Source: Halomonas sp. A40-4 (GTDB lineage Bacteria; Pseudomonadota; Gammaproteobacteria; Pseudomonadales; Halomonadaceae). Taken from it: a stretch of 64,000 nt of DNA. Under the pieces are notes generated by a model. That model worked only from the letters and a program-made list of their open reading frames with translations. It did no database searches and was not told where the DNA came from. The stretch lies in NCBI RefSeq assembly GCF_015767635.1, contig NZ_CP065230.1:2108001-2172000 (forward strand). Reading direction: 5' to 3'. This document shows, piece by piece, positions 42,109 through 51,376 of this stretch. Position numbers and translations under genes: made by a program. Numbering within the stretch: position 1 is the stretch's first letter; each line of letters begins with the position of its first letter.

Positions 42109-42226
42109 GTCTGATACTTGCGTGTGGTATATCTGTGAGCCTATCGTTAAGTACGTGGCATGACTTTCCTGACATAAACTCGCATGATAGTAGTTCGATA
42201 TCCGGCTCTGCTAACCAAGGATGCTT

Positions 42227-42898
42227 ATGGTATATCTCAAACGTGCGTATCGGGCGCTTTTATGCGGCGGCGCCTCGCTTGTTCTTCTCAGTGTCAGCCC
42301 TGATACGCTTGCCAGTGATACCCGTATCAGCGTATCCGACAGCAATGGTGAACCGCTGAGCAATGCCGTGGTGGAAGTCTATTTTCCATACTCGGCATCG
42401 CGCGATACCAGCGTAAAGCAAATTTATCAGCGCGGTGCGGCTTTTCACCCCGAGGTGCTGACAATCCCGGTGAATAGCCAGGTAACATTTCCCAACGAAG
42501 ACACGACACGTCACCATGTATTTTCTTTTTCCGACGCCAAAACCTTTGATCTCAATCTTTATCTGAACGAAACGCCACCGCCCGTTCATTTTGATACGCC
42601 TGGCGTGGTGGTGCTGGGATGTAACATTCACGATCACATGCAGGCCTTTATAGTGGTCAGCGATGCCCCTTTTTATGCCATGACCGATAACAACGGACAG
42701 GTCGTCCTGCCATCGATGCCACCCGGCCAGCATCGCGTAAGGGTTTGGCATCAACGCCTCCACGATAGCCAGCAGCGCTGGTGGGAAGGCGAAATTGCCC
42801 CAACCGAGCAGTTGTCGGTCCCTCTGGAACTGCGCGCCACCCCGAAGCCACCCGAGAAGCTGTCGCCGTTGCAGCAACGTTTTAGAGAGGCCACCTAG
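42227..42898 (+). CDS. Periplasmic cupredoxin-like protein (annotated in relatives as methylamine utilization protein)
   Basis: 223 residues from the ATG with AAGGATGCTT upstream, with a signal peptide to about DTLAS (residue 30). The middle is a plastocyanin/amicyanin-like domain. A His candidate ligand is at 96/97 (TRHHVFSF), and Cys132, His135 and Met138 are spaced C-x2-H-x2-M (GCNIHDHM), the amicyanin spacing for type 1 copper. The C-terminal part looks like a small carboxypeptidase-regulatory-like beta domain (LPSMPPGQHRVRVWH). Copper binding and electron transfer are inferred. It starts a five-gene plus-strand series with c-di-GMP and haemoglobin genes. Confidence 0.78.
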   Translation: MVYLKRAYRALLCGGASLVLLSVSPDTLASDTRISVSDSNGEPLSNAVVEVYFPYSASRDTSVKQIYQRGAAFHPEVLTIPVNSQVTFPNEDTTRHHVFSFSDAKTFDLNLYLNETPPPVHFDTPGVVVLGCNIHDHMQAFIVVSDAPFYAMTDNNGQVVLPSMPPGQHRVRVWHQRLHDSQQRWWEGEIAPTEQLSVPLELRATPKPPEKLSPLQQRFREAT

Positions 42899-42934
42899 TG
42901 CCTAGCGACAACTTGAGGGCCAGATAACAACGAT

Positions 42935-45262
42935 ATGCGCTTTCGTACCCGTTTGATGCTCGTGCTGTTAACCGTGGTGGTGGTCTCACAGCTGGCCACC
43001 GGCCTGGCGTTTCTGCGCGCCACTCAGCAAGATGCCCTGGCCAAGGGTACTCAGCGCCTTGAGGTGGGAGCCCGTGTTCTCGACCAATTACTCGAAAGAC
43101 GCGGCGATCAGCTACACGATAACGTGGCGATTCTGGCCGATGATTTTGGCTTTAAAAGCGCGGTCGCCTCCCAGGATCGTGAAACGCTACAGTCGGTATT
43201 AGTTAATCACGGTACTCGGGCTGATGCCGACATCGTGCTGTTAAGCGACCTGGACGGCCAACTGCTTGCCAGCAGCCATCATCCCTCACAAACGCCCATG
43301 CCCTTTCCCGAGCTGTTTGAAACCGCTCGCCAGCAGGGTTCTGCGTTCAGCGTCGTGATTGCTGATGGACAGCCCTACGAGCTTGTCATGTTGCCGGTAC
43401 AAGCGCCCAACGTGATTGGTTGGGTGGGCATGGGCTTTTTAATTGACGACGCCGTCGTCGAGGAAATCAATGCCCTCACCGGCCTGGAAATCAGCGTGGT
43501 CAATTACACCTCTGACCAGACATCAACGTATCTAGCCAGTTCGCATTCCCAAAAAGCAGCCGAGCCATTAAGTCAGTTCAATAATGCATCTGAGGCAGGG
43601 GCGTACTCAGGAACCAGTCAGATGACGCCTGACGATGGTTATCTGACCTATGCGAGCGAGCTATATAAGGACTCAAGGAATCAAACGTTCGCGCTCATTC
43701 AGCTGTCACGTAACGAATTACTAGCCGCCTACGACGACCTACAGTGGCAGCTAGTCATTATCGTGGCACTTATATTGCTGTTCACAATCGCTATTGCGGC
43801 CTGGAGTGCCCGTAGTATCAGCCGCCCGCTCGTCGCGCTGGCCGACGTTGCCAGACGGATTGGTCAAGGTGAGCGTGTCACTGACGTCCCAGCAGAATCA
43901 TCCCAAAGTGAAACCGGGCTGCTCGCGGGGACGCTGCGCTCGATGCAAGACGATATTGCCGAACGTGAAGCGATCCTGCGGCATCAGTCACGCCATGACC
44001 TGCTCACCGATTTGCCCAATCGCATCAGCGCCCTGGAAGACATCAATGCCCGCATAGACGACGGTCACCCCTTTACCCTGCTGCGCCTGGCCATTAAGGA
44101 CTTTCGCAACATCAACGATACCTTCGGCTACGAACTGGGCGATCATGTGCTGGTAACCCTTGCCCACCGTATGAAAGCGCTGACATCCCCTATTCAATCC
44201 GCCTATCGCTTGGCCAGCGACGAATTCTTACTGCTGATCAATCAACCTGACACCACGCCAAACTGGCGCATCAGTGAACTCGCAGCACTCTCAACGCCCA
44301 TCGACCTGGATAATTCGTCAATCGGCATTTCACTGGCTGCGGGTGAAGTGAGCTATCCAGCACACGGTGCGAAGGCGCAGTTGCTGCTACGCCGCGCCGA
44401 TATTGCTCTCGACATGGCGCGTCATCACCCGGATGCCCACCAGCGTTACGCCGAAGGCCAGGACGAACGCCACTTACGCCAGCTGACGCTGATTCATGAT
44501 CTCCGCGATGCAGTGAGCAACAATCAGCTTTGGATGGCCTATCAACCCAAAGTGGCAACGCATGATGGGGAGGTATGCCAGTTTGAAGCACTGATGCGTT
44601 GGCGGCACCCTTCGCTTGGTTTTGTGCCCCCGGATGAGTTCATTGGCCTGGCCGAGCGCTCGGGCAATATTCGCAAGCTTAGCCAGTGGATGCTTGAACA
44701 CATAACCTCACAGCTCCAACAGTGGCAGCAACAAGGCTCTCGAATCAGCGTGGCTGTCAATTTATCCGCCAGCGATGTCACCGACCCCGATCTTCCGGGG
44801 CAGTTAGCCGAGTTGCTGGCGCGCCATGATTTAGCAGCGGATCAATTGAGCCTGGAGGTTACTGAAAGTGCCGTCATGCAGGACATCAATGCCGCTGCCA
44901 GAACGCTGGATGAGCTGAGCCGCCTCGGCGTGTCCATCGCGATAGACGACTATGGCACCGGGTATTCGTCCCTGGCACAGATCAAGCGATTGCCGGTTAA
45001 CGAACTCAAGATCGACAAGTCCTTTGTGCTCAAGCTCGACTCCCAGGAAGACGACCTGACGATTGTACGTTCGACGATCGAGATGGGTCACAGCCTAGGG
45101 CTGAGCATTGTTGCCGAAGGGGTTGAAAATGCGGCTAGCGCCGCCTTGCTGAATGACTTGGGCTGCGATTATCTACAAGGCTACTGGATCGCCAAACCCA
45201 TGCCGAGTGACCAGGTGATTCCCTGGCTGAAAAGCACCGAAATCTTCACCTTCACGCATTAA
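42935..45262 (+). CDS. Membrane c-di-GMP phosphodiesterase: Cache sensor, HAMP, degenerate GGDEF, EAL
   Basis: 775 residues. A transmembrane helix at 7-27 and a second at about 271-290 bracket a periplasmic Cache-like sensor. HAMP follows (about 292-345), then a GGDEF domain whose signature is ASDEF (427-431), and an EAL domain with intact EAL (551-553), NLSASD, EVTES, DDYGTGYSSL and EGVE motifs. Cyclase activity is unlikely; hydrolysis of c-di-GMP is likely. The sensor would face the same compartment as the neighbouring cupredoxin and haemoglobin. It starts 36 bp after the cupredoxin gene. Confidence 0.9.
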   Translation: MRFRTRLMLVLLTVVVVSQLATGLAFLRATQQDALAKGTQRLEVGARVLDQLLERRGDQLHDNVAILADDFGFKSAVASQDRETLQSVLVNHGTRADADIVLLSDLDGQLLASSHHPSQTPMPFPELFETARQQGSAFSVVIADGQPYELVMLPVQAPNVIGWVGMGFLIDDAVVEEINALTGLEISVVNYTSDQTSTYLASSHSQKAAEPLSQFNNASEAGAYSGTSQMTPDDGYLTYASELYKDSRNQTFALIQLSRNELLAAYDDLQWQLVIIVALILLFTIAIAAWSARSISRPLVALADVARRIGQGERVTDVPAESSQSETGLLAGTLRSMQDDIAEREAILRHQSRHDLLTDLPNRISALEDINARIDDGHPFTLLRLAIKDFRNINDTFGYELGDHVLVTLAHRMKALTSPIQSAYRLASDEFLLLINQPDTTPNWRISELAALSTPIDLDNSSIGISLAAGEVSYPAHGAKAQLLLRRADIALDMARHHPDAHQRYAEGQDERHLRQLTLIHDLRDAVSNNQLWMAYQPKVATHDGEVCQFEALMRWRHPSLGFVPPDEFIGLAERSGNIRKLSQWMLEHITSQLQQWQQQGSRISVAVNLSASDVTDPDLPGQLAELLARHDLAADQLSLEVTESAVMQDINAAARTLDELSRLGVSIAIDDYGTGYSSLAQIKRLPVNELKIDKSFVLKLDSQEDDLTIVRSTIEMGHSLGLSIVAEGVENAASAALLNDLGCDYLQGYWIAKPMPSDQVIPWLKSTEIFTFTH

Positions 45263-45289
45263 CAGCGTGCTTACCGAGAGAGCCTGTCC

Positions 45290-46150
45290 ATGTCCAACGT
45301 CATCCCTAAGGCAATAGCAAAAGGCAAGCCACTCCTTATTATCCTCTTTGGGCTTTCAATAAGCAGTGCGTCCCTTGCTGGCAGTCGTCTGATAGGTACC
45401 GGTGGTGTGGGCGCTATTGAGGGAGCCGCTGGCGGTGGACTCTCGCCCTGGGCCTTGCTTACAAGTACCGCCAGTGAGCAGGAATTCGGGGCAACGGCAA
45501 CCGTCTCGCGCGCCTGGCTGGATGATTATCGCTTAACGGTCGAGGCTGCCAGCGCCAACATCTACGATCGCGTCGAGGTCTCTGTGGCACGCCAAACCCT
45601 GGACCTCGAAACCTTAGGCGGCGAGCTGGAGCAAACCATTATCGGTGCCAAGGTACGGTTATTCGGCGATGTGTTGTACCACCCCTGGGGGATCTGGAGC
45701 GCGGGCGTTCAACATAAAAACCTGGCCGATGACAGTATCCCCAACGCGTTAGGGGCGCAGCACGGCCAGGGGAACGATATTTATCTAAGTGCCAGCAAAC
45801 TGGTGTTCAACACCGTGGCTGGGCGCAACCTGTTGCTGAATGCCACCCTGCGTAATACCGACGCTAATCAAGGCGGATTGCTGGGGTTTGGCGGCAATAA
45901 CGGCGGCCGCGAATGGGTTGCCGAAGGCAGCCTGGGACTCTTTGTGACACCCAAGTGGGTGATGGGAATGGAATATCGACAAAAGCCTGATCGGCTTAGC
46001 GCAGCCCGGGAAGACGACTGGCAAAGCCTTTATAGCGCTTACTTCTTCAACAAGCACGTATCGCTGACCGCGGCCTGGTTAGCGTTGGGCGATATCGCCG
46101 GGTTACCGTCTCAGGATGGCGCCTATGCGTCGCTTCAGGCAGCCTTTTGA
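45290..46150 (+). CDS. DUF3034 family outer-membrane-type protein
   Basis: 286 residues with a cleavable signal (SISSASLAGS, about residue 31). A glycine-rich N-terminal stretch (GTGGVGAIEGAAGGGLSPWA) is followed by alternating beta-strand patterns ending in a terminal Phe, typical of outer-membrane barrels. DUF3034 proteins recur beside truncated-haemoglobin and c-di-GMP genes, but no activity is known. It is 27 bp behind the phosphodiesterase gene and ahead of the haemoglobin gene. Confidence 0.78.
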   Translation: MSNVIPKAIAKGKPLLIILFGLSISSASLAGSRLIGTGGVGAIEGAAGGGLSPWALLTSTASEQEFGATATVSRAWLDDYRLTVEAASANIYDRVEVSVARQTLDLETLGGELEQTIIGAKVRLFGDVLYHPWGIWSAGVQHKNLADDSIPNALGAQHGQGNDIYLSASKLVFNTVAGRNLLLNATLRNTDANQGGLLGFGGNNGGREWVAEGSLGLFVTPKWVMGMEYRQKPDRLSAAREDDWQSLYSAYFFNKHVSLTAAWLALGDIAGLPSQDGAYASLQAAF

Positions 46151-46170
46151 CCCGTCAAGGAGACTCCATC

Positions 46171-46605
46171 ATGCGTTTTCACCACTACGCCACCACGCTG
46201 CTGATGGCACTCTGGCTGACTGGCTGTTCGGCCCAGCATACGACCCAACCATCGCTTTACACACGACTTGGCGGCATGCAGGCCATTGATCGCGTGGTCG
46301 AGAACATGCTATATCGGGTGGCAGACGACCCGGAGGTCGTGGTCTTTTTTGCCAACACCAACATCGACCATTTTGCAGAGGCTTTCGCCACCCAGCTATG
46401 CGATATCAGCGACGGTCCCTGCCAATACGAAGGGCCGCCCATGGATCGTGCCCACCAGCACATGGGCATCAACGATGCGCATTTCAATCGTGTGGTTGAG
46501 TATCTGGCCGACGCAATGGCGGAGGAAGGCGTTCCTCTGGCAGCTCAAAACGAGTTATTAGGGCGATTAGCGCCACTGTATGCCGATGTCATGCGACGGC
46601 AATGA
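46171..46605 (+). CDS. Lipid-anchored group 1 truncated haemoglobin
   Basis: 144 residues from the ATG after AAGGAGACTCCATC. The N-terminus is a lipoprotein signal with lipobox LTGC (Cys about 20), unusual because truncated haemoglobins are normally cytosolic. The globin part keeps family landmarks: SLYTRLGGMQAIDRVV, a VVVFFANTN helix junction, and the proximal His in DRAHQHMGI followed by HFNRVVEYL. It would carry haem at the membrane surface in the periplasm and bind O2, NO or related ligands. The last 17 bp overlap the convergent diguanylate cyclase gene. Confidence 0.82.
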   Translation: MRFHHYATTLLMALWLTGCSAQHTTQPSLYTRLGGMQAIDRVVENMLYRVADDPEVVVFFANTNIDHFAEAFATQLCDISDGPCQYEGPPMDRAHQHMGINDAHFNRVVEYLADAMAEEGVPLAAQNELLGRLAPLYADVMRRQ

Positions 46606-47737
46606 TTTGCCAATCATCCCGTCCCGCTGTCTTCACCTGATAAAGGGCGTTATCCGCGGCTTCATAGGCCCGGGGGAACCCCACTCTCGACGGCATAAAA
46701 CAGGTTGCCCCGATACTGAGCGTCACCTGTTTTTTATCCGGATGGGCGGCGTGCGAGAACGCTGACCGTTGCACTTCTTGGTGAAGCTGTTGGCAGTAGC
46801 GACCCAGCGCATCAATATCCTCGCAAGGCAATAACGCCGCAAATTCATCGCCGCCCAGCCGATAGAGAGTCGCCTCTTCTGGCAAGGCATCGGCAATTAA
46901 CAGTACAAGGTTGCGTAACAGAGCGTCACCCGCCGGATGCCCCATGGTATCGTTATACTGTTTGAAAAAATCGATATCCACTAACACCAGGCCTAGCAAC
47001 TGCTGGGCTTGCTGCATGACGTCCTGGTGGAGTGCACTGCGATTGCCAATGCCCGTTAAAGGGTCACGCATGGCACGCCCCATCCACCGCAGTGTTTCCT
47101 GAGTCGCCTTTTCTGTACGCCTTAATTGCCGTTCATGCAGCCACCAGAACAGCAGGCCAAATACAAAGATCAGAAGGCTGGTATAGATAAGCACCTGGTT
47201 GTGCCAGCGGGTTCTCTCCGAAAAGGTGTTAATGGCTTCCGCGCGGCGATCCAACTGCCCCATTTCGATACGCGTCAGGCAGGCAATCGGGTCGAGCAGT
47301 TCTCGAGCGAGCACCACCGGTAACACGCTATCGCTTTCCAGCGACGTCACCGTCTCGTCCAGCACGCCTAAGCTGGGTGACGTGCAGTCATATTGCTGAT
47401 GGTAAACATCCACGTCGAACAGGCCGTAGGCCAACTCGATGTCGGTTATCGCCGCTGCCCGTTCTTCGGGCCCAGGCATGTCCAACAGACGGGCCTGAGC
47501 ATCCTGTAAATAGTGCCGGGAACGCGTAGCCAACTGTTGCCCCGTCAGGTTACCCGATTGGCTGAAGTAAGTCTGAATCTCGGGAAACACCCAGCGGGCT
47601 TCATAGATGATCAACACCATCAGCGCCATGAAACTCATCAGGCTGAGCGATAGCCATTTGATGTAGCGGCCCGGCCGCTTGCGATTGGCCCAGTCGCTTT
47701 TATCAACGTCACGGGATGAGTCAAGAATTGGCTTCAT
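46589..47737 (-). CDS. Membrane diguanylate cyclase with intact GGDEF
   Basis: 382 residues. Transmembrane helices at about 27-47 and 183-202 enclose a periplasmic sensor of about 130 residues with no family I recognise (it contains a Cys pair, Cys118 and Cys153). The GGDEF domain (220-380) has the intact signature GGDEF (295-299) and the DIDFFKQYND metal/substrate motif, but no RxxD inhibitory site at the usual place. It makes c-di-GMP from two GTP. It starts 3 bp after the SUOX-like gene and converges on the haemoglobin gene. Confidence 0.9.
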   Translation of the reverse strand: MKPILDSSRDVDKSDWANRKRPGRYIKWLSLSLMSFMALMVLIIYEARWVFPEIQTYFSQSGNLTGQQLATRSRHYLQDAQARLLDMPGPEERAAAITDIELAYGLFDVDVYHQQYDCTSPSLGVLDETVTSLESDSVLPVVLARELLDPIACLTRIEMGQLDRRAEAINTFSERTRWHNQVLIYTSLLIFVFGLLFWWLHERQLRRTEKATQETLRWMGRAMRDPLTGIGNRSALHQDVMQQAQQLLGLVLVDIDFFKQYNDTMGHPAGDALLRNLVLLIADALPEEATLYRLGGDEFAALLPCEDIDALGRYCQQLHQEVQRSAFSHAAHPDKKQVTLSIGATCFMPSRVGFPRAYEAADNALYQVKTAGRDDWQIIAVA

Positions 47738-47740
47738 GGG

Positions 47741-48241
47741 TTACCCACGCGCTTCGATACTGCGAATCATCCAGATCCAGTCATTGAACTCGCGTAAGCT
47801 GTTAACGTCCCGGTCACCGTATTCCCGCTCCACCAGACGTACAGGGCCCCTTGAACGCAGACTCAATGGCTTGCCGTCTTCTATCGTCACCAGATACCAG
47901 TTGGGGTCATCCCAACCGCCTAGCGTGACCTCGTAACCGTCCCAGGCAGTAAAGCGCAACTTGGCAGGCACACGGCCAAAGTGGCGGGCAAGAAAGTCAG
48001 CAAACGGCATGCCTTGCATTGCCACAGTTTCTCCCTGATAAGGGTCAAACACTTGAAAGTGGCTGTCTGAAGACTGGCGAAGCTGCTCGACATCAACCTG
48101 CTTGACCATATCACCATCAATCAGTCTTAGCGTTTGCGCCATGCTCGTTACCGGCACCAGAAAAGCGGCGATGCCCACCCCTAGCGCCCAGCGAGCTGCG
48201 GGGAAACGGCGCAAACAACGCTTGAAAACGGCAGCATCCAT
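47741..48241 (-). CDS. Exported SUOX/molybdopterin-fold-like protein without cysteine
   Basis: 166 residues with a signal peptide (cleavage about SMAQT, residue 36). The mature part resembles the oxidoreductase molybdopterin-binding fold in miniature (VAMQGMPFADFLARHFG, LRFTAWDGYEVTLGGWD). The cysteine that ligates Mo in true enzymes is missing; the only Cys is in the signal peptide. A binding or sensory partner for the adjacent cyclase is inferred rather than catalysis. It shares a minus-strand operon with that cyclase. Confidence 0.65.
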   Translation of the reverse strand: MDAAVFKRCLRRFPAARWALGVGIAAFLVPVTSMAQTLRLIDGDMVKQVDVEQLRQSSDSHFQVFDPYQGETVAMQGMPFADFLARHFGRVPAKLRFTAWDGYEVTLGGWDDPNWYLVTIEDGKPLSLRSRGPVRLVEREYGDRDVNSLREFNDWIWMIRSIEARG

Positions 48242-48364: not shown

Positions 48365-48769
48365 TCAATCAGGGTCTGTGTCGCGGGGGTGCCGCTTGGC
48401 GTTCTCCTGCGTTTCAAGGCCGCTTTTCAGCTCATGGGTCAACGGATCGTAATTGGGTCTTAGCTCGTCCTTGACCGTGCCGCTCCACAGGCGCGCCCCC
48501 ACAAAATAACCTGCCCGGCCAATCACATGGGCCGCCACTGGCGCGGTCATCATGATGAAGAGAATCACCCCGAAGGCCCGCGCGACTACCGCCACCTCGC
48601 CAAAGTGCAGAGCCACCGCCAGCATGATCAGGGTAGCCCCCAGGGTCGCTGCCTTGGTAGTGGCATGCATGCGCGTCAGCAGGTCGGGCATCCGCACCAG
48701 CCCCAGGGCGGCCAGGAACATGAAGATGGCGCCGACCAGAATCAGCCCGCTCTTGAGCAGTTCAATCAT
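48365..48769 (-). CDS. mnhG: Na+/H+ antiporter subunit G
   Basis: 134 residues from the ATG behind GAGGAGG; the longer frame starts inside mnhF. Three membrane helices with the PhaG/MnhG pattern GAIFMFLAALGLVRMPDLLTRMHATTKAATLG, followed by a polar C-terminal tail of about 40 residues. It is the last subunit of the seven-gene Mrp complex, which expels Na+ in exchange for H+ at high salt and high pH. It overlaps mnhF by 8 bp. Confidence 0.9.
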   Translation of the reverse strand: MIELLKSGLILVGAIFMFLAALGLVRMPDLLTRMHATTKAATLGATLIMLAVALHFGEVAVVARAFGVILFIMMTAPVAAHVIGRAGYFVGARLWSGTVKDELRPNYDPLTHELKSGLETQENAKRHPRDTDPD

Positions 48770-49031
48770 TGCGTGGCCCTCCTCGCTCAAGGAATCGCGC
48801 GAAGCCGATGGCCGCCATAAAGGCCATCAGCGCCATGACGATAGCCACGTCCAGCAAGCTGGCCACATCGGTGGCGATGGCGACGAGACCAATGGTGCCG
48901 ACAAGAATCGACGAAAAGAGCTCCAGTGCCACCACCCGGTCGGGCAGGCTGGGGCCCTTGAAAAGGCGCACGAAGGCGAGGCACAAGGCCAGGCACATGA
49001 GCGCGAGGCTCAGCAGAATGACAGTCGACAC
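48762..49031 (-). CDS. mnhF: Na+/H+ antiporter subunit F
   Basis: 89 residues from GTG 49031, directly behind AGGAGGGGAGCC; the longer frame is rejected. Three helices with the MnhF segment FVRLFKGPSLPDRVVALE. It is a small membrane subunit of the Mrp complex, placed 13 bp after mnhE. Confidence 0.9.
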   Translation of the reverse strand: MSTVILLSLALMCLALCLAFVRLFKGPSLPDRVVALELFSSILVGTIGLVAIATDVASLLDVAIVMALMAFMAAIGFARFLERGGPRND

Positions 49032-49044
49032 GGCTCCCCTCCTC

Positions 49045-49518
49045 TCAATGGAACAGCTCCAGAGCGCGGCGCTCAAGCTCGGCTAGGCTCCGGCGCAGCT
49101 CGTCCTCGTTGTCGAGGAACATGGCGTGGATGTAAAGCACCCGGCGGTCGTCGGAGACGTCCAGACTCAAGGTGCCAGGCGTCAACGAGATGAGATTGGC
49201 GACGAAGGCAATCTCGAACTCGTTGCTCGCCTTGAGCGGCATCGCAATCACCCCCGGTTTCATGTACCAGGGCGGCGTAATGATGTCGAAGGCCACCTTG
49301 AGGTTGGCCAGCAACAGTTCCTTGAGGAAAAAGCCGATGAACATGATCAGCCGCGGCAGGCGCTGGGCGTGGCCCGCCAGCGCCGGCACCTGGGACTGGA
49401 TCAACGCCAGCACCAGATAGCCGAACAGCAGACCGGCGAGCAGGTTGCGTCCGCTGAAGTCGCCGGTGAGCACTACCCAGGCAAACCCCAGCAACAGGTT
49501 CCAGGCCGCACCGATCAT
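49045..49518 (-). CDS. mnhE: Na+/H+ antiporter subunit E
   Basis: 157 residues, two or three N-terminal helices and a soluble C-terminal domain with the MnhE signature [21 protein letters not shown]. Its ATG overlaps the mnhD stop (ATGA). Confidence 0.92.
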
Positions 49519-51029
49519 GGCATTACCTCCTCAGCCTCGCCCAGCACTGCTTCGATGTAACGAGACGGATCGAGCAGTTCGGTTGCGGAGGCTTCGGCCA
49601 GAGAATAGATCGGCTCGGCGTTGAGGCCGATGAACAAGGTGCACAGTGCCAGCCCCACCACTGGCGCGGTCATCAGCCACATCTCGCGCTGACCCAACGC
49701 TGGATAAGGGTCGGCATCGCCATCCTCCGGAGTAGCCTTCCAGAATACCTCGTTCCAGATCTTGACCATCGAATAGAGCGTCAGCAGGCCGACCAGCAAA
49801 GCGATGAAAGTCACACCCCAGGCCTCGGCCTCAACGCCCGCACGGATCACGATAAACTTGGCGAAGAAGCCGGACAATGGCGGCATGCCCGCCAGTGAAA
49901 GAGCCGGAATCAGAAACAACACGGCCAGCCAGGGATGGCTGCGATACAGCCCGCCCAGTTGCTTGAGCTGATAAGTCCCGCGCAAGCGGTGCACGATGCC
50001 GCTGACCAGGAAGAGATTCGTCTTCACGATGATATGGTGCATGATGTAGAAGACCCCGCCGATGATCGCCAGTGGCGTGAACAGCGCAAGCCCCAGGATC
50101 ATGTAGCCGATCTGGCTGACGATGTGGAACGACAGGATGCGCCGGAACTCATATTGGGCCGCCGCGCCCAATACCCCGGAGAGCATGGTCAGCCCTGCCC
50201 CCCAGAGCAGAATCTCATGGGTATAGCCGGGGCTCTGGTTGAAGATCAGCGTGAAGACCCGATACAACGCGTAGACACCCACCTTGGTAAGCAGCCCGGC
50301 GAACAGCGCCGAGACCGCCACTGGGGGCGTATGGTAGGAAGCTGGCAGCCAGAAGAACAGCGGAAAGGCCGCTGCCTTGATGCCGAAGGCGACCATGAAC
50401 ATCATCGCCAGCACATCGACCATGCCAGTGTCTTCCAGCGTGGCGAGACGCCGGGCGATGTCGGCCATGTTGAGGGTACCGACCATGCCGTAGAGCAAGC
50501 CGACGGCTACCAGGAAGATCACCGAGGACACAAGGTTCAGGGTCACGTACTTGATTGCGCCCTCCATCTGGGCCTTCTCGCTGCCGAGTATCAACAGCGC
50601 AAAGGACGCCACCAGCATTACTTCGAACCAGACGTAGAGATTGAAGATATCGCCGGTGAGGAAGGCCCCGGCTACCCCGGCCAGCAGCAGGTGCATCAGC
50701 GGGAAGTAGCCAAACTTCTCGTGGCCTCGACCAACAGTGGCCAGGGAGTAAAGCGCCACGGCGAAGCCGATAATACCGGTGAGCACCACCATGATGGCGC
50801 CCAACAGGTCGGCCACCAGGCTGATACCGAAGGGCGCCTGCCAGTCACCCATGTGCATCACCAGGATGCCCTCGCGATTCACTGTGGCCAGCAACCAGAT
50901 GGCGGTGGCCAGCAGGCCACCGGTGCCAGCCACGGCGACGAAACGTTGCATGCCGCGGGAGCGCCAGAATACCAGCGAGACGGCCCCGGCAAGTAGCGGG
51001 ATCAGGATGGGCAGCGCAACTTGGGGCAT
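49515..51029 (-). CDS. mnhD: Na+/H+ antiporter subunit D
   Basis: 504 residues from the ATG that shares one base with the mnhC stop (TGATG); GTG one codon earlier is possible. It is homologous to complex I NuoL/M/N proton-pumping subunits, with about 14 helices, the conserved Glu-bearing helix [16 protein letters not shown] and the broken-helix Lys/His region [20 protein letters not shown]. Together with MnhA it forms an ion-translocating pathway of the Mrp complex. Confidence 0.93.
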
Positions 51030-51376
51030 CACGTGTCGGTATCCTTCATCTTGTCGAGGTCATCGGCGCGAACGATCTCCCAGGCACGCCGCACCAGTAC
51101 CACCGCAAAGGACAACACGCCGAAAGCGATGACAATGGCGGTAAGCACCAGGGCTTGTGGCAGCGGGTCGGCGACCGCCCCCTCTGGCGCCGTCATGCCT
51201 GGGGGGACCAGCGGCGGCGCCCCGCGAGTCATTCCTGCGGTAACGAAGATCAACAGGTTGGCCGCATTGGAAAGCAACATCAGTCCGATCACCAGCTTGA
51301 CGATGGAGCGGCGCAGCATCATGTAGATAGCGGTAGCGAACAGGATGCCGATGGACACAGCCATCAATGGTTCCAT
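51029..51376 (-). CDS. mnhC: Na+/H+ antiporter subunit C
   Basis: 115 residues, NuoK-like with three helices ([39 protein letters not shown]). It overlaps mnhB by 13 bp and mnhD by one base. Confidence 0.93.

Follow-up and report, generated by a model that had tools for sequence, protein, structure and literature searches.

Here we describe four adjoining plus-strand genes in a 64,000-nucleotide stretch of Halomonas sp. A40-4 DNA (hereafter the window; contig NZ_CP065230.1, positions 2,108,001 to 2,172,000, from a 4.15 Mb genome in one contig). The four encode a predicted type-1 cupredoxin, a membrane receptor with a predicted phosphodiesterase domain for cyclic di-GMP (c-di-GMP), a DUF3034 protein and an exported truncated haemoglobin. 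These gene families are found side by side in many bacterial families, more than chance would give, and form a conserved unit, within which the cupredoxin is strongly tied to its receptor, keeping the same sensor type across four different outputs. The two minus-strand genes that face this unit are a separate, lineage-specific neighbour, set tail to tail with the unit in some of the Halomonadaceae. In window coordinates, the six genes are as follows.

Gene 1, 42221..42898, plus strand: 225 amino acids (aa); exported protein with a predicted type-1 cupredoxin domain ahead of a second, carboxypeptidase-regulatory-like domain.
Gene 2, 42935..45262, plus strand: 775 aa; membrane receptor with periplasmic dCache_3, HAMP, degenerate GGDEF (ASDEF) and predicted EAL phosphodiesterase domains.
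Gene 3, 45290..46150, plus strand: 286 aa; DUF3034 protein, probably a beta-barrel of the outer membrane, judging by its C-terminal Phe and the strands of a low-confidence model.
Gene 4, 46147..46605, plus strand: exported lipoprotein, predicted group-1 truncated haemoglobin; TTG at 46147, likely start ATG at 46171.
Gene 5, 46589..47737, minus strand: 382 aa; membrane diguanylate cyclase that has an intact GGDEF motif and a periplasmic region of ~150 aa; outside the conserved core.
Gene 6, 47741..48241, minus strand: 166 aa; PruR-like exported SUOX-fold protein, Cys-free in its mature part; outside the conserved core.

Evidence from open reading frames (ORFs), Pfam and structure matches puts all six genes where the first-pass annotation had them, with families that were right in substance. 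The spacing that it gave, with gaps of 3-40 base pairs (bp) within each arm and a 17-bp overlap between the arms, likewise agrees with the ORF coordinates: the plus-arm gaps are 36 bp, 27 bp and then ~20 bp (a 4-bp overlap if gene 4 uses the TTG), and 3 bp separate genes 6 and 5.

The linkage of the plus-arm genes emerges from a survey of gene neighbourhoods in which genes were called as six-frame ORFs with custom profiles, without curated annotation, and with thresholds set by us, as were those of the cupredoxin-locus survey below. All four genes are found in 30 of 32 Halomonadaceae DUF3034 loci, the remaining two (L032 and L033) having broken frames and haemoglobin only as weak fragments. 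They are also found together in 30 of 44 DUF3034 loci outside the Halomonadaceae, from 14 families, with 23 co-directional, 6 split as divergent pairs and 1 in another order. The other 14 of these 44 loci comprise five with DUF3034 and haemoglobin only, four with DUF3034 only, three without the receptor, one without the cupredoxin and one without the haemoglobin; these counts exclude one locus at a contig end (L062) and one broken second DUF3034 copy (L132, in G342). Public annotation of plasmids gives a similar picture under other names. A Novosphingobium plasmid carries, in divergent order, an EAL protein, a carboxypeptidase-regulatory-like protein, DUF3034 and a group 1 truncated hemoglobin; a Caballeronia plasmid shows a third order, with DUF3034, truncated hemoglobin, a 'methylamine utilization protein' (the public name of gene-1-type proteins) and an EAL protein in one row; and a Comamonas plasmid has the cupredoxin-EAL pair only. 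Twelve of 13 plasmid records carrying DUF3034 have a cupredoxin match.

Across a phylum-wide sample of 398 genomes, 39 carry DUF3034 and 51 match the cupredoxin strongly (E up to 1e-45). Such a strong match is present in 38 of the 39 DUF3034 genomes, compared with 13 of the 359 without DUF3034 (Fisher 9e-41, a value made too small by shared ancestry). The haemoglobin gene adjoins DUF3034 in 39/39 genomes of this sample and in 9/15 of a more scattered class sample. Haemoglobin and DUF3034 are a tight pair, one that most often joins the cupredoxin-receptor module.

We assign gene 1 to the type-1 cupredoxins because of its ligand motif and fold, its Pfam matches all falling below threshold (30.1 bits for CarboxypepD_reg, where the cut-off is 32.3; E 0.067 for Cupredoxin_1). 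Its AlphaFold2 model, with a mean predicted local distance difference test (pLDDT) of 80.9, matches pseudoazurin and amicyanin structures (best E 3.8e-6), and the type-1 ligands His98, Cys134, His137 and Met140 are each present in 45/45 aligned homologues; copper binding is predicted from fold and ligands together. In gene 2, a Pfam scan finds dCache_3 (7.5e-14), HAMP, a degenerate GGDEF (ASDEF) and EAL (2.5e-75), while every NCBIfam match listed for it, the DosP match included, lies under its equivalog cut-off. Residues Glu551, Asn609, Glu641, Asp671, Asp672, Lys692 and Glu728, which we take to be the EAL catalytic set, are each found in 42/42 aligned homologues, the rows having been picked by a score above 350 bits and so being biased toward EAL-type receptors. 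Gene 2 is accordingly a predicted EAL c-di-GMP phosphodiesterase with its catalytic residues all kept.

Gene 3 matches DUF3034 at 1.8e-92 in the Pfam scan, and its closest named DUF3034 relatives are from the Halomonadaceae (best 91 % identity, Vreelandella subterranea). Its model shows long antiparallel strands at a mean pLDDT of only 58.7, and no solved structure matches it at E <=0.001, the best being FapF at E 0.039; it is a probable outer-membrane beta-barrel. A different association is seen at three loci (L058-L060, in G026, G259 and G267), where lone, distant DUF3034 genes lie near a PAS-domain-like protein.

By sequence, gene 4 is a predicted group-1 truncated (2/2) haemoglobin with a proximal His: it matches Bac_globin at 1.3e-17, its best solved relatives are HbN entries (2.9e-19), it has an LTGC lipobox, and the proximal His103, along with Cys85 and Cys92, occurs in 50/50 aligned homologues. 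The invariant Cys pair would fit an oxidising compartment. A crude lipobox test is positive in 25/45 haemoglobins, the remainder resembling plain signal peptides or not being judgeable. HbN-type nitric oxide (NO) dioxygenases carry a distal Tyr B10, and in 49 of 50 rows of this family the residue aligned with it is Leu, Val, Ile, Met or Thr, allowing for a possible one-residue shift of the alignment. A classical HbN-like NO dioxygenase identity for gene 4 is disfavoured by these aliphatic residues.

Within the module, the cupredoxin is also closely tied to the receptor. At 45 of 58 cupredoxin loci in the phylum sample (matches >120 bits), the next gene is a receptor that matches the sensor profile, 42 of these having GGDEF-EAL outputs and 3 having others. 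A class III cyclase output follows the cupredoxin at L168 and L175, and a Ser/Thr kinase output at L187 and, in the class sample, at L053; a hybrid histidine kinase containing HAMP or PAS lies one gene beyond the cupredoxin at L188 and at L189, the latter under the 120-bit line. At L188, the gene between cupredoxin and hybrid histidine kinase (L188:4184-5194) encodes a MauG/CCP di-haem peroxidase. The most economical reading would be that the cupredoxin serves as periplasmic input to a receptor family that has exchanged its output several times, by analogy with the PruR-DcpA/DTB pairs considered below.

dCache_3 itself is common (153/398 genomes), and it is therefore one sensor subtype, not dCache_3 as such, that accompanies the cupredoxin. 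To a sensor tree we admitted 29 rows by their position beside a cupredoxin and 24 by a dCache_3 match away from one, rather than by mutual likeness; L210 was dropped as no frame was found over its match, L209 and L224 were not entered, and L050 was trimmed by 25 N-terminal residues, its frame start looking wrong. One branch, with an SH-like approximate likelihood-ratio (SH-aLRT) support of 98, has all 29 linked rows and 2 of the 24 unlinked rows on one side and the 22 other unlinked rows on the other. The two exceptions are L207, a paralogue with a cupredoxin on its other side, and L206, a receptor from a genome that has its cupredoxins at other sites. Run against unlinked receptors, the linked-sensor profile gives weak or no matches except to L206, L207 and the DUF3034-linked L224. 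Furthermore, cupredoxin and sensor distances are correlated over 36 loci (Mantel r 0.68, with 0 of 2000 permutations as high), and in a genome with two pairs (L099 and L181) the second pair's cupredoxin and sensor share their four nearest other-genus loci, and were therefore inherited as a pair.

We read genes 1-4 as an envelope signalling module whose periplasmic input comes from the cupredoxin, partner of the dCache_3-HAMP receptor, which here sets an EAL phosphodiesterase; we give this reading about an even chance of being right. The cupredoxin's state, either how far it is loaded with copper or whether that copper is Cu(I) or Cu(II), would be read by the periplasmic sensor domain and passed through HAMP to the phosphodiesterase, with c-di-GMP falling or rising with the condition of the envelope; the receptor would probably in this way adjust an internal messenger that governs attachment. 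That the two proteins touch, which way the output shifts and what is sensed (copper, redox state, O2 or NO) are matters of inference. The DUF3034 barrel and exported haemoglobin would form an outer-membrane/periplasm pair, probably supplying or modifying the signal, and the haem could contribute through chemistry with O2, NO or peroxide, or through electron exchange with the cupredoxin. Such haem chemistry may feed the copper site or the sensor, and the MauG-like gene at a histidine-kinase locus, a single case, hints likewise. More tentatively, it is possible that the cupredoxin is a general periplasmic signalling subunit with a copper-redox or occupancy input and at least four receptor outputs, for which the barrel serves as port and a haem protein as chemical antenna, namely the exported truncated haemoglobin or, in one lineage, a MauG-like di-haem peroxidase.

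As to the source of the signal, nitrite reductase genes are not enriched with DUF3034: NirK is found in 3/39 DUF3034 genomes and 7/35 DUF3034-negative ones, and cytochrome d1 matches above 150 bits in 5/39 and 5/35, the comparison being with a small, hand-picked set of 35 DUF3034-negative genomes of the same class. The window's own genome has no NirK above the cut-off and no cytochrome d1 match. NO from denitrification as a linked signal is therefore unsupported, and O2, peroxide, copper and general redox state stay as candidates.

Several observations weigh against our reading of the module. A receptor is not the next gene at 13 of the 58 cupredoxin loci, of which three have DUF3034 and haemoglobin, four an ORF of ~410 aa, one is L188 and five have neither (L174 among these lying at a contig end); the ~410-aa ORF is barrel-like, and the cupredoxin can, on the evidence of the 13 loci, work with no receptor linked to it. 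Because L206 and L207 fall inside it, the approximately unbiased test rejects a strict clade of cupredoxin-linked sensors (p-AU 0.0006); in the same tree the sensors of the Ser/Thr kinases and histidine kinases sit on distant branches, and both the co-occurrence and the Mantel statistics are inflated by shared ancestry. Four of the 15 class-sample genomes carry DUF3034 without any of its three partners in the fetched stretch (of the two other exceptions there, one lacks the haemoglobin but has cupredoxin and kinase, and the other is at a contig end). Finally, the GGDEF degeneracy of the window's receptor is not conserved among its homologues.

The ~410-aa ORFs have relatives that follow several cupredoxin-receptor pairs, and those scanned have either no Pfam match or sub-threshold porin/barrel matches. 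ORFs of ~410 aa also stand upstream of a cupredoxin-free dCache_3 GGDEF-EAL receptor in Halomonadaceae and relatives (L211:3392-4627 and L213:1149-2396; one has no Pfam match, the other a sub-threshold match to porin O/P), as do ORFs of similar size at L212, L214-L216 and L226. Barrel-receptor pairing may be wider than the cupredoxin module. Separately, on a Phyllobacterium zundukense plasmid (L233), a distant cupredoxin relative is clustered with an SCO-family protein and cbb3-type oxidase subunits; the wider cupredoxin family is therefore not solely receptor-tied.

The best-surviving alternative, which we nonetheless consider unlikely, is that the four genes make up an envelope redox or detoxification unit, with the haemoglobin acting as dioxygenase or peroxidase, the cupredoxin as its electron partner and the barrel as a channel, while the phosphodiesterase is merely co-transcribed and answers to a signal of its own. 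The five non-Halomonadaceae loci with DUF3034-haemoglobin pairs that lack a linked cupredoxin or receptor, the three with cupredoxin, DUF3034 and haemoglobin and no receptor, and the di-haem peroxidase gene of L188 would all suit such a unit. However, simple co-transcription does not predict that one cupredoxin-sensor type persists through four outputs, and the globin, aliphatic at the Tyr B10 column, is unlike a classical NO dioxygenase. We hold it improbable that the cupredoxin is instead a copper-occupancy sensor, whose apo and copper-loaded forms the receptor tells apart while haemoglobin and DUF3034 handle haem or metal: the invariance of the four copper ligands in all 45 homologues agrees with this, but an electron carrier would bind copper equally, and no copper-homeostasis gene was noticed among the recurring neighbour clusters, which were viewed by sequence starts only and not family by family.

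The remaining alternative, that of the first-pass annotation, joins all six genes into one switch of opposing cyclase and phosphodiesterase, and is highly improbable: the arms of the window do lie tail to tail with their 17-bp overlap, and both arms occur in 18-19 of 32 Halomonadaceae loci (depending on whether a cyclase frame is required), but 13 of those 32 and every one of the 44 other DUF3034 loci lack the PruR-like gene, and the genome has a second PruR-like/GGDEF pair with no plus-arm genes within the 12 kb fetched around it. The survey of the six families' neighbourhoods thus bears out the linkage of the plus-arm four and leads us to reject a six-gene unit; since the four families stay together outside the Halomonadaceae and the PruR-like gene does not accompany them there, the unit consists of genes 1-4, with genes 5-6 as its neighbour. 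Nor does the opposition of two c-di-GMP enzymes hold up as a conserved property, the minus arm being patchy and resembling a known pterin-responsive pair.

As described in the available part of PMC13259868, PruR proteins have a secretion signal, a length of ~170 aa, no Mo-ligating Cys, and a Tyr and a Trp at the pterin site, with an Asp two positions before the Tyr reported for some groups; the alignment there includes a Halomonas elongata PruR, and 7kp2 is the pterin-bound PruR structure (PMC13259868). Gene 6 matched no Pfam or NCBIfam family, and its solved relatives are 7kom (E 2.8e-6, 'Oxidored_molyb domain-containing protein') and, weakly, 7kp2 (E 0.21, 'Putative Pterin Binding Protein'). 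At 166 aa, it has an N-terminal hydrophobic signal, no Cys past that signal, a Tyr and a Trp identified by alignment with the pair in 7kom rather than by A. tumefaciens numbering, and an Asp two positions before the Tyr; Tyr and Trp are kept across the Halomonadaceae alignment, bar one broken copy (L032). The layout is also that of a PruR pair, with the pruR-like gene first and a membrane GGDEF protein next on the same strand after the 3-bp gap. Gene 5 matches GGDEF at 9.5e-33 in the Pfam scan and has its motif intact, and the WX7E pattern of the DcpA-type periplasmic domain is found neither in gene 5 nor in the cyclase of the genome's second pair, and we therefore call gene 5 a PruR-linked cyclase rather than DcpA. 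Genes 5-6 would, from their sequences, be a PruR-linked pair of a known kind, presumably pterin-responsive.

The PruR-like gene stands at 19 of the 32 Halomonadaceae DUF3034 loci. At L009:9395-9898 and L118:5533-6060, it lies beside the module with no recognisable cyclase frame, the cyclase possibly having been lost. The second PruR-like/GGDEF pair of the window's genome (G000:C1:2017458-2017871 and the next gene; L133:5330-7002) lies ~90 kb outside the window and stands alone. Past gene 6, the next minus-strand genes (window 48365-51032) resemble Na+/H+ antiporter (Mrp/Mnh) subunits, judged by eye from their ORF translations.

We found no description of the four-gene module or of the cupredoxin-receptor partnership in the open-licence literature searched, which omits most subscription journals. 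No role for DUF3034 is described there either, its mentions in the text available being a retron figure legend (otherwise DUF3037) and a Streptomyces gene table, and in the accessible part of one source globins and GGDEF/EAL genes are treated separately (PMC3770913). The same literature gives exported truncated haemoglobins no known purpose, and many Cache-type c-di-GMP enzymes have no known input. The cupredoxin-sensor pairing offers a concrete partner, testable in harmless bacteria that grow in culture; if true, it would make a copper protein a signal input, beyond an electron carrier. Setting the module apart from the adjoining pterin pair also avoids experiments built on a false six-gene unit.

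Cupredoxins are known as electron carriers, and gene 1 shares with amicyanin and pseudoazurin the fold and the His-Cys-His-Met ligand set; unlike them, it adds the C-terminal carboxypeptidase-regulatory-like domain and its linkage is with receptors, not with a dehydrogenase or nitrite reductase. The module likewise recalls NspS-MbaA and YfiR-YfiN, in which a membrane c-di-GMP enzyme is controlled by a periplasmic protein, although those systems are not known to include a copper or haem protein or a linked outer-membrane barrel like the module's. DosP and H-NOX-linked enzymes are haem-based c-di-GMP sensors; that haem and EAL chemistry would meet in one pathway is the analogy of the first-pass annotation, but the haem protein there is cytoplasmic, whereas the module's globin is a separate polypeptide with an export signal. 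A further parallel is offered by the PruR-DcpA and PruR-DTB pairs, in which, so far as the available part of the source describes them, the gene for an exported cofactor-binding protein directly precedes that for a membrane receptor, which keeps its periplasmic part while its cytoplasmic output varies between c-di-GMP domains and a histidine kinase (PMC13259868). Genes 1-2 have the same layout of exported protein and receptor with exchangeable output, but where those pairs have a pterin protein of SUOX fold and the periplasmic domain of DcpA, genes 1-2 use a predicted type-1 copper protein and dCache_3; the cupredoxin receptors also show Ser/Thr kinase and class III cyclase outputs, and a barrel and a haemoglobin are added as partners. 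The protein families are known, and what appears to be new is the four-gene module and a cupredoxin-receptor partnership with exchangeable outputs, a further member of the kind made up of a periplasmic accessory protein plus a membrane receptor.

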